64,000 nucleotides of DNA, taken from assembly GCF_003122215.1 (NCBI RefSeq), contig NZ_QEYD01000002.1, forward strand, positions 372,001-436,000, in the 5' to 3' direction. The first letter of the stretch is position 1. Each line of letters opens with the position of its first letter. Below are positions 11,896-60,094 of the stretch, piece after piece. The stretch is from Pararhodobacter marinus (GTDB lineage Bacteria; Pseudomonadota; Alphaproteobacteria; Rhodobacterales; Rhodobacteraceae). The notes beneath the pieces were generated by a model, which saw only the letters and a list, made by a program, of their open reading frames with translations, made no database searches and had not been told where the DNA came from. The position numbers were made by a program, and so were the translations under genes.

Positions 11896-13074
11896 TCACG
11901 ACGTGACGTCGTAGGCGCGCTCGCCATGGACCGACAGGTCGAGCCCGTTGGTCTCGGTCTCGGCATCGACGCGCAGCGGGGTGATCAGGCCGACCAGCTT
12001 GATCAGGATCCAGGACATCCCGACCGTATAGACCCCGACGATGATCAGCGCACCCAGCTGCGCGCCCCATGCGGCGTGGCCCAGGGCGGCCAGCATCACC
12101 GTGCCGAAGATGCCGCCCACGCCATGCACCGCGAACACATCGAGCGTGTCGTCGACCTTCATCTTGTGGCGCACGAAATTCACGGCTTCCTGGCACAGGA
12201 TCCCGGCAACCGCGCCGATGATCAGCGCCTCGACCGGGCCCACGAAGCCCGAGGCGGGCGTGATCGAGGCCAGCCCGGCGATCGTGCCGGTCACAAGCCC
12301 CACCATCGAGGCGCGGCCGAACTTGATCCGCTCCCACAGCGCCCAGGTCAGAGACGCCGCGGCCGCCGACAGATGCGTCACGGTGATCGCCATCGCCGCC
12401 TGACCGTTCGCCGCCAGCGCCGAACCGCCGTTGAAGCCGAACCAGCCGACCCACAGCATCGCCGCGCCCATCATGACCAGCCCCGGGTTATGCGGCGGCG
12501 TGACCCGGTTCGTGCGCGGACCCAGCGCGATCGCCAGCATCAGCGCGGCGAGCCCCGCCGTTTCGTGCACGACGATCCCGCCCGCGAAATCGCGCGTGCC
12601 GATCGCGCCGAAAATCCCGCCATCGGCCAGGAACCCGCCGCCCCAGATCCAGTGCGTGACCGGCGCGTAGACAAGGATCATCCACAGGGCCGAGAAGACC
12701 AGCACGAAGCCATAGCCGATCCGTTCGACATAGGCACCGACGATCAGCGCGGGCGTGATGATGGCAAAGGTCATCTGGAAGACGAAGAACAGCACTTCGG
12801 GGACCGACCCCGACAATGTCTCGGCGTCGATGCCGGTCAGGAAGACCTTGGACAGGCCGCCCCAGACCGCGTTGCCCTCGCCGAAGGCCACGGAATAGCC
12901 GATGGCCAGCCACAGGACCGACATCAGGCAGGCGATGGAAAAGACGTGCATGAACACGCTCAGCACGTTTCGCGCCCGAACCAGCCCGCCATAAAACAGC
13001 GCCAGCGCGGGCAGGGTCATGAACAGCACAAGGGCTGTCGCGGTGATCAGGAAAGCGGTATCCGCAGCGTTCAT
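11896..13074 (-). CDS. amtB: ammonium transporter
   Basis: 392-residue Amt/Mep/Rh family channel with about 11 membrane segments. Visible family features: ALALFYGGLVRARNVLSV near residue 25, the periplasmic VTHWIWGGGFL, the first pore histidine in GIVVHETAGLAAL and the second in FAVHGVGGIFGTVM. It imports ammonium in nitrogen limitation and in most proteobacteria is paired with glnK; no PII gene is adjacent here. There is no cleavable signal peptide of the kind seen in some Amt proteins: the first residues MNAADTAFLITATALVLFM lead directly into segment 1. The 160-base upstream region has no clear sigma-54 promoter. Confidence 0.96.
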   Translation of the reverse strand: MNAADTAFLITATALVLFMTLPALALFYGGLVRARNVLSVFMHVFSIACLMSVLWLAIGYSVAFGEGNAVWGGLSKVFLTGIDAETLSGSVPEVLFFVFQMTFAIITPALIVGAYVERIGYGFVLVFSALWMILVYAPVTHWIWGGGFLADGGIFGAIGTRDFAGGIVVHETAGLAALMLAIALGPRTNRVTPPHNPGLVMMGAAMLWVGWFGFNGGSALAANGQAAMAITVTHLSAAAASLTWALWERIKFGRASMVGLVTGTIAGLASITPASGFVGPVEALIIGAVAGILCQEAVNFVRHKMKVDDTLDVFAVHGVGGIFGTVMLAALGHAAWGAQLGALIIVGVYTVGMSWILIKLVGLITPLRVDAETETNGLDLSVHGERAYDVTS

Positions 13075-25733: not shown

Positions 25734-25902
25734 CCGTCCTGTCGCTGCGGACCCGGGAGCGCGACGCTTTTTGACCGGGTAATGCGCTGAAAAGGCGAGT
25801 TTTCGGGCTGGAAACTTGCCTGTTCCATCTCCATACTCTGGCGACAGGGGGAGACTGCGCCGGCCGCAACGGCTGCGCGGGCCAATAAGAAAAGGCAAGA
25901 CA

Positions 25903-26136
25903 ATGGCCGTCGACAAACAGAATCTGCAGGACGCATTTCTAAACCACGTTCGCAAGAACAAGGTCCCCGTGACGATTTTCCTGATCAACGGGGTCAAGTT
26001 GCTGGGTGTCATCACCTGGTTTGACAATTTCTGCGTGCTGCTGCGCCGCGAAGGGCAGAGCCAGCTGGTCTACAAGCATGCGATCTCGACGATCATGCCG
26101 GGCCAGCCGATTTCGCTGTATAATGGTGACGACTGA
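25903..26136 (+). CDS. hfq: RNA chaperone Hfq
   Basis: 77 residues from ATG 25903 with AAAAGG upstream. The Sm1 motif ([25 protein letters not shown]) and the Sm2 motif [10 protein letters not shown] are clear. The C-terminal tail is short, as usual in alphaproteobacteria. Hfq forms a hexamer that pairs small RNAs with messages. It precedes hflX by 21 bases. Its presence is relevant to the candidate small RNA at 28792-28897. The longer open frame from 25816 has no family similarity in its first 29 residues. Confidence 0.97.
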
Positions 26137-27528: not shown

Positions 27529-28629
27529 TTATTCCTCGTCTTCCTCGAGCAGCGTGATCTCGCCCATCTCGACCAGATTGCGCACCGCGGCCACGGCCGC
27601 GGCCAGGGCCGCGTCGGCCTCTTTCGGCTTGATACGCCCGCGGGTTTCGACCTCGTCGCGCAGGGCGGCGGCCATGCGCTGGGACATGTTGTTGAGAAGG
27701 AAGGTCGCGGCCTGACCGTCGGGGCTGTCGGGCGCGGGCAGGGTGGCGGCCAGCGCGGTGATCAGCTCTGCCTGCGGGATTTCGCGCAGAAGTTTCGGCA
27801 CGTCGCGCGGATTCACCCGCTCGGCAATGTTGGCGAAGGTAAAGATCGCCTTGCGCACGCCTTCGGCAAAAGCGGCGTCGTCTTCTTCCAACCCGGTCAG
27901 CAGATCGTCGCGCAGCTGCGACGAGGTCGAGTTCAGGATCGCCCCCACCCGCGCCGCCGGGGCAGAGGGGAACGCGCGCGCCGGCCGTCCGTCCAGTTCC
28001 CGCGCGATCGACGCCCCGATCCGCGCGACCATGTCGGGCGCGATGCCTTCGGTCAGCGACACGCCATAGGCCACGCGGCGCGCCCGTTCGCCCGGCATCT
28101 TGCCCAGGATTTCCGCCGCGCGCCCGACCGGCAGTTTCGACAGCACGACCGAGGCCACCTCGGCGCTTTCGGGCTCCAGCACGCTGAGCAAGCTGGGCGT
28201 ATCGGCGCTGGTGATCCTTTCCCACGGATCCTCGCCCGCGCGCGCGCGCTGGCGCAGGCGCGAGCTGGCACCGGGGCTGAGCTTGCCGTCGAGCGCCTTC
28301 AGCGCGCCGCCCAGCCCGGCGGGAAAGCTAAGCCCCACCTGTTCCATCGTCTCGACGAATTCGGCAATCACGGTGTTGAGCGTATCGCGATCCACCAGCC
28401 GCATCTCGGCGATGGTTTCGGTCAGCGCGGTCTGCATGTCCTCAGGCAGCGCGGAGAGTTTCAGATCCGCGCCTTCGGCAACCAGCAGCCGGACAATGAT
28501 CGCCGCTTTCTGGCGGCCCGTCAGCTTGCGGATCGTCCGCCCCGAGGCGGCATGGGCATGGTTCAGCGCCGCCGAGGCGGTGTCGGTGTCGAGCGAGGGA
28601 AAAGAAAACTTGGCAAGGTCCTGGGACAT
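27529..28629 (-). CDS. fliG: FliG-like flagellar motor switch protein, orphan
   Basis: 366 residues. The C-terminal domain is clearly FliG: FTFANIAERVNPRDVPKLLREI, then NNMSQRMAAALRDEVETRG and VRNLVEMGEITL. The middle also has the armadillo-like part (LLSVLEPESAEVASVVLSKLPVGRAAEIL). In flagellar FliG the torque helix carries two aspartates before RSIQ; here the aligned pair is Asn273-Pro274, so torque function may be altered. No other flagellar gene is in the window. It may be the main FliG placed outside the flagellar cluster, or a second diverged copy. The alignment is by eye. Confidence 0.88.
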   Translation of the reverse strand: MSQDLAKFSFPSLDTDTASAALNHAHAASGRTIRKLTGRQKAAIIVRLLVAEGADLKLSALPEDMQTALTETIAEMRLVDRDTLNTVIAEFVETMEQVGLSFPAGLGGALKALDGKLSPGASSRLRQRARAGEDPWERITSADTPSLLSVLEPESAEVASVVLSKLPVGRAAEILGKMPGERARRVAYGVSLTEGIAPDMVARIGASIARELDGRPARAFPSAPAARVGAILNSTSSQLRDDLLTGLEEDDAAFAEGVRKAIFTFANIAERVNPRDVPKLLREIPQAELITALAATLPAPDSPDGQAATFLLNNMSQRMAAALRDEVETRGRIKPKEADAALAAAVAAVRNLVEMGEITLLEEDEE

Positions 28630-28743
28630 CGGCTCATCCGTGCTGGCTTGGCACAGGATGCGTCAAGGACGGTTAATCGACCGATAATTCCCGGTGGATT
28701 TTTCGCCCCGGTCGGGACCCTTTCGCGGCCCGGTGGCGCCGAG

Positions 28744-28757
28744 TTGATCCATGTCAA
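28744..28757 (+). promoter_or_regulatory. FNR/FnrL-type binding site
   Basis: TTGATCCATGTCAA matches the FNR family consensus (TTGAT-N4-ATCAA) in 9 of 10 defined positions. Its centre at 28750.5 would place a class II activated start at about 28792, which is followed on the plus strand by an intrinsic terminator. The alternative is control of the minus-strand fliG, 115 bases away, but no good minus-strand -10 element is at the right spacing. Confidence 0.6.
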
Positions 28758-28791
28758 GGTCCGACACCGCCACCGCGATTAGACAGGACAG

Positions 28792-28897
28792 CGAAGGGCC
28801 GGGCCTTGTCCGATCTTCATCTCCCGTTTCCGGGCGCACCTCCCTGCATCCGGGCGACTTTGCCGCCGCGAGACCTGGCTCTCGCGGCGCTTTTTTT
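28792..28897 (+). ncRNA. candidate FNR-controlled small RNA
   Basis: The 292-base gap between fliG and ispG, both on the minus strand, contains a plus-strand intrinsic terminator without any plus-strand gene before it. About 41 bases downstream of the FNR-type site centre is the predicted start (about 28792), with TAGACA at 28780-28785 as a possible -10. The transcript would be about 105 bases. It contains CTCCC (28821-28825) and CCTCCC (28839-28844), which could pair with ribosome-binding sites, and ends in a strong hairpin with seven T. The hfq gene is nearby. No convincing coding frame with a start site lies in it. This is inference; expression is untested. Confidence 0.5.
28864..28897 (+). 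terminator. intrinsic terminator on the plus strand with no upstream plus-strand gene
   Basis: CGCCGCGAGA (28864-28873) and TCTCGCGGCG (28880-28889) make a perfect 10-base stem with a 6-base loop, followed by C and seven T (28891-28897). The T-run is on the plus strand only. On the minus strand it lies 33 bases after the ispG stop but lacks a T-run there, so termination of ispG is at best a side role. Confidence 0.8.
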
Positions 28898-28921
28898 CGC
28901 GGTGCCAACGGGGCCGGGCGA

Positions 28922-30049
28922 TCAGTCCGCAGCGACGGGATCGTTCTGCGCTTCCAGCTCGGCCGCGCGTTTCTCGACCAGCTCGACGATGTGGTCGATC
29001 ATCCGGTCATTGGACATCTTGTGGTCCTGCTTGCCCGCCATATAGACCATGCCCGACCCCGCGCCGCCGCCGGTAAAGCCGATATCGGTCAACAGCGCCT
29101 CGCCCGGGCCGTTCACCACGCAGCCGATGATCGACAGGCTCATCGGCGTCTTGATATGCGACAGCCGGTCTTCGAGGATCTCGACCGTCTTGATGACGTC
29201 GAAACCCTGACGCGCGCAGGACGGGCAGGAAATGATCTGAACGCCGCGGGTCCGCAGGCCCAGCGATTTGAGGATCTCGTACCCGACCCTGACCTCTTCG
29301 ACCGGATCGGCCGACAGGCTCACGCGGATCGTGTCGCCGATCCCGGCCCATAGCAGGTTGCCCATGCCGATGGCGGATTTCACCGCGCCCGACACGAATC
29401 CCCCGGCCTCGGTGATGCCCAGATGGATCGGCGCGTCGGTGGCCTCGGCCAGCTGCTGATAGGCGGCAGCGGCCAGGAACACGTCGGACGCTTTCACCGA
29501 GATCTTGAATTCGTGGAAATCGTTGTCTTGCAGGATCTTGATGTGATCGAGGCCGCTCTCGACCATCGCGTCGGGGCAGGGCTCGCCGTATTTGTCCAGC
29601 AGGTGTTTTTCCAGCGAGCCAGCATTCACGCCGATGCGGATCGAACAGCCGTGATCCTTGGCGGCGCGGATGACCTCGCGGACGCGCTTTTCGTCGCCGA
29701 TATTGCCGGGATTGATCCGCAGGCAGGCGGCCCCGGCTTCGGCGGCCTCGATGGCGCGTTTGTAGTGGAAATGGATATCGGCCACGATCGGCACCGGGCT
29801 TTCGCGGCAGATTTCGCGCAGCGCCTGCGTGCTGGCCTGATCGGGGGTCGAGACGCGAACGATATCCGCACCCGCCTCGGCGGCAGCGAGGATCTGCGCC
29901 AGCGTCGCCTTGACATCCGTGGTGTCGGTATTCGTCATCGTCTGCACCGAGATCGGCGCGTCGCCGCCCACGGGGACGGATCCCACCATGATCTGGCGCG
30001 AGACGCGGCGCTCGATATTGCGCCAGGGGCGGATCGGGTTCAGGGACAT
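28922..30049 (-). CDS. ispG: 4-hydroxy-3-methylbut-2-enyl diphosphate synthase
   Basis: 375 residues from ATG 30049 ([20 protein letters not shown]). The N-terminal TIM-barrel part includes [18 protein letters not shown] and [19 protein letters not shown]; the iron-sulfur cluster cysteines are in [13 protein letters not shown] and the [11 protein letters not shown] motif near the C-terminus. It makes HMBPP, the step after the IspF product, so it works in the same pathway as ispDF at 14.2 kb. Reading frames extending to 30475 are shadows of the RodZ-like gene. Confidence 0.97.
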
Positions 30050-57855: not shown

Positions 57856-59565
57856 TCAGAACAGGAAATAGCGCTGCGCGAGGGGCAATTCGCGGGCCGG
57901 TTCGCAGGTGAGCAGCACGCCGTCGGCCCGGACCTCGTAGGTTTCGGGATCGACCTCGATCTCCGGGGTGGCGTCGTTGAGTTTCATGTCGGACTTGCTG
58001 ACGCCCCGGCAGCCCCTGACGGGAACCACGCTCTTGGCCAGACCCAGCGCCTGTGCCACGCCCGCATCGACCGCGGCCTGCGAGACGAAGGTCACCGCCG
58101 AGCGTTCGACCGAGCGGCCCATCGCGCCGAACATGGGCCGGGAATAGACCGGCTGGGGCGTCGGGATCGAGGCATTGGGATCGCCCATCTGCGCCATGGC
58201 GATGGTGCCGCCGATCAGCACCATTTCGGGCTTCGCGCCGAAGAAGGCGGGCGACCAGAGCACCAGATCGGCGCGTTTTCCGATTTCGACCGAGCCGATC
58301 TCGTCGGCCATGCCATGCACGATGGCGGGGTTGATCGTGTATTTCGCGACATAGCGGCGGGCGCGGAGATTGTCGTTCTCGCCCGTTTCCTCGGGCAGGC
58401 GGCCGCGCTGCTGCTTCATCTTGGACGCGGTCTGCCAGGTGCGGGTGATGACCTCGCCCACGCGGCCCATGGCCTGGCTGTCGGACGAGATGATCGAGAA
58501 GGCGCCCATATCGTGCAGGATGTCCTCGGCGGCTATGGTTTCGCGGCGGATGCGGGATTCGGCGAAGGCCACGTCCTCGGGCACCTTGCGCGACAGGTGG
58601 TGGCAGACCATCAGCATGTCGAGATGTTCCTCGATCGTGTTGACGGTGTAGGGCATGGTCGGGTTGGTGGAAGAGGGGATCACGTTCTGCGAACCCACCA
58701 CCTTGATGATGTCGGGCGCGTGGCCACCGCCCGCGCCCTCGGTATGGAAGGCGTGGATGGTGCGGCCGCCGATGGCCGCCAGCGTGTTCTCGACAAAGCC
58801 CGATTCGTTGAGCGTGTCGGTATGGATCATCACCTGCACGTCCATCTGATCGGCCACGCTCAGGCAGCAATCGATGGCGGCGGGGGTGGTGCCCCAATCC
58901 TCGTGCAGTTTCAGCGCACAGGCGCCGGCCTTGATCATTTCCACCAGTGCTTCGGGCTGCGACGCATTGCCCTTGCCCGCAAGCCCGATATTCATCGGCA
59001 CCGCGTCCACCGCCTGCAGCATCCGGCCGATATGCCACGGACCTGGCGTGCAGGTCGTGGCCAGCGTGCCATGCGCGGGGCCGGTGCCGCCGCCCAGCAT
59101 GGTGGTCAGGCCCGAATGCAGCGCATCCTCGATCTGCTGGGGGCAGATGAAGTGGATATGCGCGTCGAACCCGCCCGCCGTCAGGATCCGGCCTTCGCCT
59201 GCGATGATCTCGGTCCCCGGGCCGATGATCACGTCGACGCCCGGCTGGGTATCGGGGTTGCCCGCCTTGCCGATCACCGCGATCCGCCCGTCGCGCAGGC
59301 CCACATCCGCCTTGTAGATGCCGGTATGGTCAAGGATCAGCGCATTGGTGATGACCGTGTCCATCGCGCCGCCCGCGCGGGTGATCTGGCTCTGGCCCAT
59401 GCCGTCACGGATCACCTTGCCGCCGCCGAATTTCACCTCGGAGCCATAGATCGTCAGGTCGCGTTCGACCTCGATGATGATCTCGGTATCGCCCAGCCGC
59501 AGCCGGTCGCCGGTGGTCGGGCCGAACATGTCGGCATATTGGGCGCGGGGGATCTGATAGGGCAT
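57856..59565 (-). CDS. ureC: urease alpha subunit
   Basis: 569 residues from ATG 59565 with AAAGGA upstream. All nickel-site residues are present: His136 and His138 (DAHIHFICP), the lysine to be carbamylated at 219 ([10 protein letters not shown]), His248 ([12 protein letters not shown]) and His274 ([14 protein letters not shown]). The flap has Cys321 and His322 ([21 protein letters not shown]). It hydrolyses urea to ammonia and carbamate. The numbering is offset by two from the Klebsiella enzyme. It is the last gene of the ureDAJB..C unit. Confidence 0.98.
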
Positions 59566-59596
59566 GGCGGTGTCCTTTCTTGCGGGCGGGAGGCGG

Positions 59597-60094
59597 TCAC
59601 TCGGCCCAGAGGCCGTGGGCCCTGTGCCAGTCCTCGAGCGAGGCATCGGGATAGCGGGCGAAGGTCCGGTCCTGCGGCGCGGCCTGCAGAGGGATCCAGT
59701 CGGGTTTGAAATCGAGCATGATATGCGTGCGCGCGGGGGCTTCAGGCAGCGGGGTGTCGATCACCGAGGCCAGCGGATGGACCAGTTCGGGCCAGGTCGG
59801 ATCGTAAAGCCAAAGGTGGCAGCCGCAGCGGGTGCAGAAATTCCGCTCGGCGCCGGACAGGCGGCAGGCGCCGTCCTCGTCGTGGATCTCGGCCCGGAAG
59901 ACGCCCAGATGTTCCGCGCCTTCGATGCTGAGGCTGTCCATGCGGGCGCCAAGATTGATCGCATAGCCACCCCCGCCCGACGTCTTGCGGCAGATCGAGC
60001 AATAGCAAAGCTGGTAGGGCACCGGCGTGTGGCTGGCCACGGCAAAACGCACCGCGCCGCAATGGCAGCTTCCCTCAAGCGACAGGCCGCTCAT
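59597..60094 (-). CDS. GFA/CENP-V domain zinc protein
   Basis: 165 residues. The zinc ligands are in [24 protein letters not shown] and [12 protein letters not shown], which is the GFA (glutathione-dependent formaldehyde-activating) or CENP-V fold. Most members do not have a proven formaldehyde role. It lies 31 bases before ureC within the urease unit, which is unexpected. A metal-handling role is possible because of its cysteines, but this is only inference. Confidence 0.9.

Follow-up and report, generated by a model that had tools for sequence, protein, structure and literature searches.

A conserved, probable small RNA gene behind an FNR box in Pararhodobacter, with predicted pairing to the ribosome-binding site of ctaD

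The gap between fliG and ispG in the window (the whole 64-kb stretch of DNA that was analysed) very likely contains a small RNA (sRNA) gene with a link to FNR. The putative gene would encode a trans-acting product of ~107 nt. At low oxygen, FnrL would bind the FNR box and activate the promoter in class II geometry; an anti-Shine-Dalgarno seed, predicted to be exposed between two hairpins, would then pair with the ribosome-binding site of ctaD and block its translation, probably with the help of Hfq. We hold with moderate confidence, from comparison of sequences, that an FnrL-activated anti-Shine-Dalgarno sRNA represses the aa3 oxidase at low oxygen, with ctaD as its direct target. The predicted ctaD target is a new result, absent from the earlier note on this DNA. 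FNR-controlled sRNAs have been characterised in few bacteria, and the available part of a 2017 account still gives the targets of AniS and of gonococcal FnrS as unknown (PMC5362039); here the candidate target is an oxidase that a cell should stop making as oxygen falls. If confirmed, the change from the aa3 to a high-affinity oxidase in the Pararhodobacter group has an RNA arm, and the differences in seed and target between genera offer a natural experiment in RNA–target coevolution.

The unit and its neighbours are arranged in the window as follows.

25897-26136, plus strand: hfq, 2.6 kb away from the sRNA; hflX and then fliG come next
27529-28629, minus strand: fliG (FliG by Pfam)
28744-28757, plus strand: FNR box TTGATCCATGTCAA, matching TTGAT-N4-ATCAA at 9 of 10 positions
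28779-28784, plus strand: candidate -10 element TTAGAC, inferred from the class II position
28791-28897, plus strand: presumed sRNA of ~107 nt, start inferred (GCGAAGG, 28791); covariance model match
28793-28818, plus strand: 5' hairpin HP1 (GAAGG...CUUC), seen in 11 of 13 single-sequence minimum-energy folds
28819-28829, plus strand: unpaired seed AUCUCCCGUUU, complementary, with CC at 28830-28831, to the ctaD ribosome site
28830-28853, plus strand: second hairpin HP2, with a CCUCCC loop at 28839-28844
28864-28897, plus strand: intrinsic terminator of 10 pairs and a loop of 6, then CTTTTTTT
28922-30049, minus strand: ispG (GcpE/IspG by Pfam)

The earlier note had proposed a near-perfect FNR box, a possible start region at class II distance, a plus-strand terminator with a 10-base stem and two C-rich motifs, and all of these were recovered at the positions listed, the motifs being CTCCC at 28821-28825 and CCTCCC at 28839-28844. 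As it had also observed, both neighbouring genes are on the minus strand; the T run of the terminator lies on the plus strand, where there is no gene as its client. Within the window, the individual signals are unexceptional. Two sites match TTGAT-N4-ATCAA with one mismatch allowed, against 0.53 expected, and 9 of 100 shuffles reach this count; the pattern TTGAN6TCAA occurs in the 64 kb only at the FNR box of the sRNA, and five times in a 400-kb sample of the same genome. A weaker second FNR-like site, TTGATCAGGATCCA, lies at 11999-12012 on the plus strand. A scan of 2.5 kb gave 2 terminator-like sites where 2.0 were expected, which is chance level, the sigma-70 consensus scan returned no promoter against 0.3 expected (TTAGAC was not picked up), and the fold of 28792-28897 is moderately better than those of shuffled sequences (z, -1.87; 9 of 200 equally good). 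Because the box, promoter and terminator signals taken singly do not go beyond chance, the case for the sRNA rests on comparison among relatives.

A DNA search with positions 28730-28910 matched 13 of the 17 other Pararhodobacter genomes (E <= 0.01). When these were aligned with the window's copy (14 loci), TTGAnnnnnnTCAA was found near the core in all 14, followed in each by CTCCCGTT. A covariance model, built from 13 loci and comprising the core and terminator with the box excluded, detected the RNA in 15 of 18 Pararhodobacter genomes, including all 12 complete ones; the divergent G013 was omitted from the alignments, the G004 locus was found by the covariance model alone, and the RNA was not found in G007, G010 and G012. 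The TTGAnnnnnnTCAA box precedes the RNA in every one of the 15 genus loci that have it, G004 providing the fifteenth, and it is by this conservation that the unit exceeds chance. The earlier note had made its proposal depend on close relatives keeping both box and hairpin; they do, and comparative sequence evidence supports its view of a promoter-to-terminator unit for an oxygen-responsive RNA, although its label "Hfq-era" is of unclear meaning. A scan of named genomes for box plus core yielded 25 loci, 13 of them in Pararhodobacter, in one "Rhodobacter sp." strain, or in metagenome-assembled genomes labelled Rhodobacteraceae or Proteobacteria, and 12 in Flavobacterium, Bacteroidales and other unrelated genomes, which look like chance matches. 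The ispG flank in 29 other Rhodobacteraceae genera showed no such unit, no fliG match and no TTGAN6TCAA box, with one imperfect match to the latter (L140).

All 15 loci keep the trinucleotide GA(A/G) at 48-50 nt from the first base of the box, or ~41-43 nt from the box centre, and the distance from the box centre to CTCCC varies from 70 to 78 (14 loci); a class II FNR promoter would be expected to hold its start at a constant distance from the box while the distance from box to seed varies. In most loci, TA occurs in the region expected to hold the -10 element. The box thus stands at a class II distance from the presumed start, and is followed by a putative transcript with conserved structure and an intrinsic terminator, as in FNR-activated trans-acting sRNAs.

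At 115 nt upstream of the fliG start, the box could instead serve the divergent fliG or another promoter, the hairpins then being a terminator or transcript end and no sRNA being made. The gene neighbourhood fits this in part, since fliG is adjacent in 12 of the 15 loci (ispG adjoins the RNA in all 15); among the remaining three, G008 and G011 stop at a contig end and consequently say little. G014, however, has the box and the RNA with no fliG match in 2.5 kb on the fliG side. Furthermore, the seed and hairpins are conserved, which is beyond what a terminator alone would explain, and the plus-strand T run has no client gene. We therefore consider this explanation very improbable, and prefer an sRNA gene under the box.

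In the predicted structure of the sRNA, the seed core CUCCCGUU is unpaired, and both it and CTCCCGTT are invariant in 13 aligned sequences. The seed of the window's own RNA has a mean unpaired probability of 0.74, against 0.41 for the whole RNA, and across 14 species the value ranges from 0.42 to 0.92, being lowest in G013. Downstream, HP2 has nine pairs, three of which are changed on both sides among the relatives (88% of cells paired), and the terminator stem has 4 of 10 pairs so changed (96% of cells paired); taken together, 92.4% of 236 cells are paired and 7 of 19 pairs carry changes on both sides. The covariation score for the two elements, 0.226, was reached by none of 500 shuffles, and the count of further pair types (15 vs 13.5) was reached by 95 of 500. 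The loop of HP2 is CCUCCC or a related C-rich sequence across the relatives. The terminator loop is CCUCCC in five of them (G006, G009, G015, G016 and G017), a feature absent from the window's genome. Single-base insertions in the core (G002 and G017) argue against a conserved peptide.

A candidate regulator and the chaperone Hfq are encoded in the same genome. Four Crp-type genes scored over the cut-off, one of which (L269) has the FnrL-like N-terminus CGSCPIRHRAVCARC (CGSC-x7-CARC) and adjoins a hemN-like gene, the FnrL-like and the hemN-like gene both being recognised by eye. In Rhodobacter, too, FnrL lies beside hemN. The position of hfq places the gene for an RNA chaperone near a possible client.

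Candidate targets were sought in seven Pararhodobacter genomes as start sites with the seed complement AACGGGAG 3-11 nt before ATG. Between 13 and 26 such sites were found per genome, against 2 to 9 for the reversed pattern (for G017 the counts are at least those among the matches listed), and this abundance is expected of a Shine-Dalgarno core. Among the matches listed, the longer string AACGGGAGCAACGAATG recurs in six of the seven genomes and belongs to ctaD, the gene for subunit I of aa3 cytochrome c oxidase; its product is COX1 by Pfam (E, 2.1e-47) and matches the solved aa3 oxidases of R. sphaeroides and Paracoccus at about 1e-112. The ctaD ribosome site GGGAACGGGAG is complementary over 11 nt, including one G-U pair, to the seed CUCCCGUUUCC. 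The complete GGGAACGGGAG is present in 13 of 16 Pararhodobacter ctaD loci (a set that excludes G003, where ctaD was not found, G005, a fragment without the locus, and second copies in G001 and G008), and in none of nine other genera of the family. The remaining genus loci retain 10 (G012), 7 (G017) and 6 nt (G010) of contiguous complementarity; in the nine other genera no match exceeds 10 nt, a length reached in G021 with G-U pairs and in a different register, and five more distant genera (L236-L240), whose start codons are poorly placed, have no 11-nt site. On the RNA side, the divergent G013 seed keeps 8 nt of the ctaD complementarity, and the variants that differ right after CUCCCGUU (G002, G003 and G004), judged by eye, would remain able to pair with GGG by G-U or G-C. 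An exposed C-rich motif with predicted pairing to a conserved ribosome site is characteristic of anti-Shine-Dalgarno sRNAs.

The ctaD leader itself contains a conserved block of 16 nt, AAGGGAACGGGAGCAA, in which every column agrees in at least 90% of 15 distinct leaders. Its two halves have pairwise identities of 0.79 and 0.87, against 0.37 in the upstream flank, and no such block was seen in the leaders of fliG (5 distinct), ispG (13) or rodZ (9), all compared without gaps; hflX, with one leader only, was unusable as a control. The 3' CAA and 5' AA of the block are conserved too, though they lie outside the pairing, and the block could be conserved for translation itself. In a 464-kb sample with crude gene calling, ctaD has the most favourable duplex energy of 353 start sites (-19.3; mean, -8.0), a first rank that is partly by construction, since ctaD was picked with the same seed search. 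For the window's genome, folding predictions place the ctaD site partly in structure within its own leader (mean unpaired probability, 0.37).

The commonness of the seed complement raises the question of breadth: an FNR-controlled anti-Shine-Dalgarno sRNA with two or three C-rich motifs might be a generalist, having other mRNAs as its main targets, with the ctaD block kept for translation or for another factor. The 13 to 26 start sites per genome are in keeping with this, as are the second CCUCCC exposed by HP2 and a flgB-like gene (by eye; L205 and L210) that has AACGGGAGAATCCCATG in three species (G000, G006 and G017). That gene is a second target candidate, less conserved than ctaD. Nevertheless, among the strings listed, that of ctaD alone recurs in six of seven genomes, its pairing reaches upstream past the Shine-Dalgarno core (GGGAAC) into a part that is conserved too, and the genera without such an RNA lack the ctaD string. 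A generalist role is accordingly rather unlikely in our judgement, and ctaD is retained as the preferred direct target.

Direct transcriptional repression of ctaD by FnrL may come in addition. Of the 16 genus loci, 11 have a TTGAnnnnnnTCAA box at 120-165 nt before the ctaD start, as do three of nine other genera at 99-121 nt. In the part of the R. sphaeroides ChIP study that was available, coxI is entered in the CrpK table without a star, denoting that it is FnrL-bound too, and the role of CrpK is given as minus (PMC4263372). Repression of ctaD by FnrL together with repression by the sRNA would form a coherent feed-forward loop governing the switch between terminal oxidases, in which the sRNA probably helps to turn the aa3 oxidase down when oxygen runs low. 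In the open-licence literature, we found no report joining an sRNA with ctaD or cytochrome c oxidase, FNR and oxygen, no Pararhodobacter small RNA, and no anaerobic sRNA with CCUCC in Rhodobacteraceae.

Run on 295 family genomes with 14 candidates scored in each, the covariance model yielded ten weak hits outside the genus. An FNR box precedes five of them, though the model contains no box, and three (L076, L083 and L084) look by eye like the CcsR type, behind DUF1127 genes. A plain pattern of an FNR box followed by two CTCCC motifs was found in 14 of the 295 genomes; a control pattern with CCCTC was equally frequent (14 of 295), so that the pattern alone is no evidence of a family, and the plain pattern reversed was found in one. 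Sorted by eye, ten of the 14 pattern genomes show hairpins and a T run and four do not; G170, one of the ten, has an additional chance-like match. The model and pattern searches together place box-linked RNAs with two to four CUCCC motifs in nine genera outside Pararhodobacter. In seven other genera, FNR-box RNAs of ~125 nt (L081, L141-L144, L153 and L154) carry three or four CUCCC motifs, mostly in loops; their neighbours are infC in L142 and L153 and, recognised by eye, also by L154 and L081, an OmpA-like gene in L143, and a VWA CoxE-like gene in L144. An Rfam scan of 12 loci (nine from other genera and three from Pararhodobacter) found no family at cut-off.

In eight of the nine genera with such RNAs ctaD was found (G292 has none over the cut-off). 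In four of them (G155, G265, G029 and G294), whose RNAs also combine an FNR box with several CUCCC motifs, the RNA motif GAUCUCCC fits the ctaD site GGGAGAUC; the ribosome site there is TGGGAGATC, and the match to GAUCUCCC of the local RNA covers 8, 8, 8 and 9 nt, respectively. In G065, G145, G170 and G246, the matches between ctaD and RNA are 7 or 8 nt, the 8-nt one involving no CUCCC motif; G145 and G246 have AACGGGAG at ctaD, yet their own RNAs match it poorly. In the genera with long RNAs, the ctaD leaders (L243-L248) have, in addition to the site at the ribosome-binding position, another of the (C/T/G)GGGAGA type ~35 nt before the start, and two loops of one RNA could bind one ctaD leader. 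Mean duplex energies, calculated without G007, G010 and G012 (RNA not found), were -18.5 for Pararhodobacter seeds on Pararhodobacter ctaD, and for GAUCUCCC seeds -16.8 on the ctaD of their own group and -11.2 on that of Pararhodobacter; both seed groups gave about -10.5 on genera without a found unit. The specificity is partial, since Pararhodobacter seeds are predicted to bind the ctaD sites of the other RNA-bearing genera nearly as well (-15.9 on the GAUCUCCC genera and -16.3 on the other four) and the seeds of G065, G145, G170 and G246 are weak on their own group's ctaD (-12.3).

The pairing of CUCCCGUUUCC with GGGAACGGGAG in Pararhodobacter and of GAUCUCCC with GGGAGAUC in the four other genera would be explained if Rhodobacteraceae possessed a drifting sRNA family under the FNR switch, with seeds that coevolve with the aa3 oxidase ribosome site and with PcrZ as an unrecognised relative. 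We put this forward as a tentative and somewhat doubtful proposal; if true, RNA control of the terminal oxidase would be a widespread second arm of the oxygen switch. The seven ~125-nt RNAs are possible relatives of PcrZ. As for the window's sRNA, it might be a shortened member of the lineage of R. sphaeroides PcrZ, a low-oxygen sRNA that damps photosynthesis genes. Such descent would agree with the FNR-box RNAs of the nine other genera, and with PcrZ itself being an RNA of 136 nt with its own promoter (PMC6238624) that depends on PrrA and FnrL (PMC8139620, PMC8307010), according to the portions of these sources consulted. In addition, a ChIP interval of FnrL and CrpK (2565800-2566399), assigned to cytochrome b561 in the portion available (PMC4263372), abuts the PcrZ 5' end at 2,565,820 (PMC6238624), which suggests direct FnrL control of PcrZ. 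Against this, the review, as far as available, allows that FnrL acts on pcrZ indirectly (PMC8139620), the plain pattern is not enriched over its control, and the flanking genes differ among genera. Membership of the PcrZ lineage is therefore decidedly unlikely, and we keep to the narrower reading of a Pararhodobacter sRNA directed at ctaD.

The window's sRNA reached no Rfam family at its cut-off. The model for mmgR/suhB (RF00519), an RNA with a hairpin, a CUCCCU motif and a terminator in an order resembling that found here, scored 22 bits (E, 0.018) against a gathering score of 41 and was rejected; at E <= 1 it matches 53 of 60 relatives and 12 of 14 control genomes, a broad response that leaves such weak matches with little meaning. 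The anti-hemB model (RF02837) likewise fell short (27.4 bits; E, 0.00013; gathering score, 49.5). The sole Rfam hit over cut-off in the window is 5_ureB_sRNA at 59125-59412 on the plus strand (92.3 bits), opposite a ureC-like gene (by eye; 57856-59646, minus strand), and it may reflect conserved urease coding sequence and not an RNA gene.

Among described RNAs, the CcsR RNAs of R. sphaeroides come from the same bacterial family and have C-rich loops, but, in the available part of their description, arise by processing of the 3' portion of a DUF1127 (ccaF1) transcript (PMC10253847), whereas the present RNA, in the gap between fliG and ispG, is preceded by an FNR box of its own and has no DUF1127/ccaF1 gene beside it; this identity was rejected. 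DenR of Paracoccus was also set aside, being antisense to the ABC-transporter gene Pden_0526 with an aerobic maximum, as stated in the part of the source at hand (PMC6686037), unlike an RNA behind an FNR box in the fliG/ispG gap. Closer counterparts are FnrS of E. coli, described in the excerpt available as FNR-dependent under oxygen limitation and acting on genes dispensable without oxygen (PMC8139620), and AniS of Neisseria, an sRNA made under oxygen limitation in a similarly partial source (PMC5362039); the present sRNA differs from both in its seed and predicted target. PcrZ shares with it the bacterial family, and is low-oxygen-induced and FnrL-dependent with its own promoter in the accessible parts of three sources (PMC6238624, PMC8307010, PMC8139620); it differs in its length and in its photosynthesis targets, puc2A and bchN, this comparison being one of descriptions, not of sequences. 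The architecture is that of NmsRA and NmsRB of N. meningitidis, which, according to the accessible part of PMC5362039, form three stem-loops, the first two separated by a UC-rich anti-Shine-Dalgarno stretch left unpaired, as here, and repress metabolic mRNAs by pairing at the ribosome site; they belong to an unrelated bacterium and have TCA-cycle enzymes as targets, and that part mentions no FNR box for them. The window's sRNA is thus of a known kind, like FnrS, PcrZ and the NmsR RNAs.
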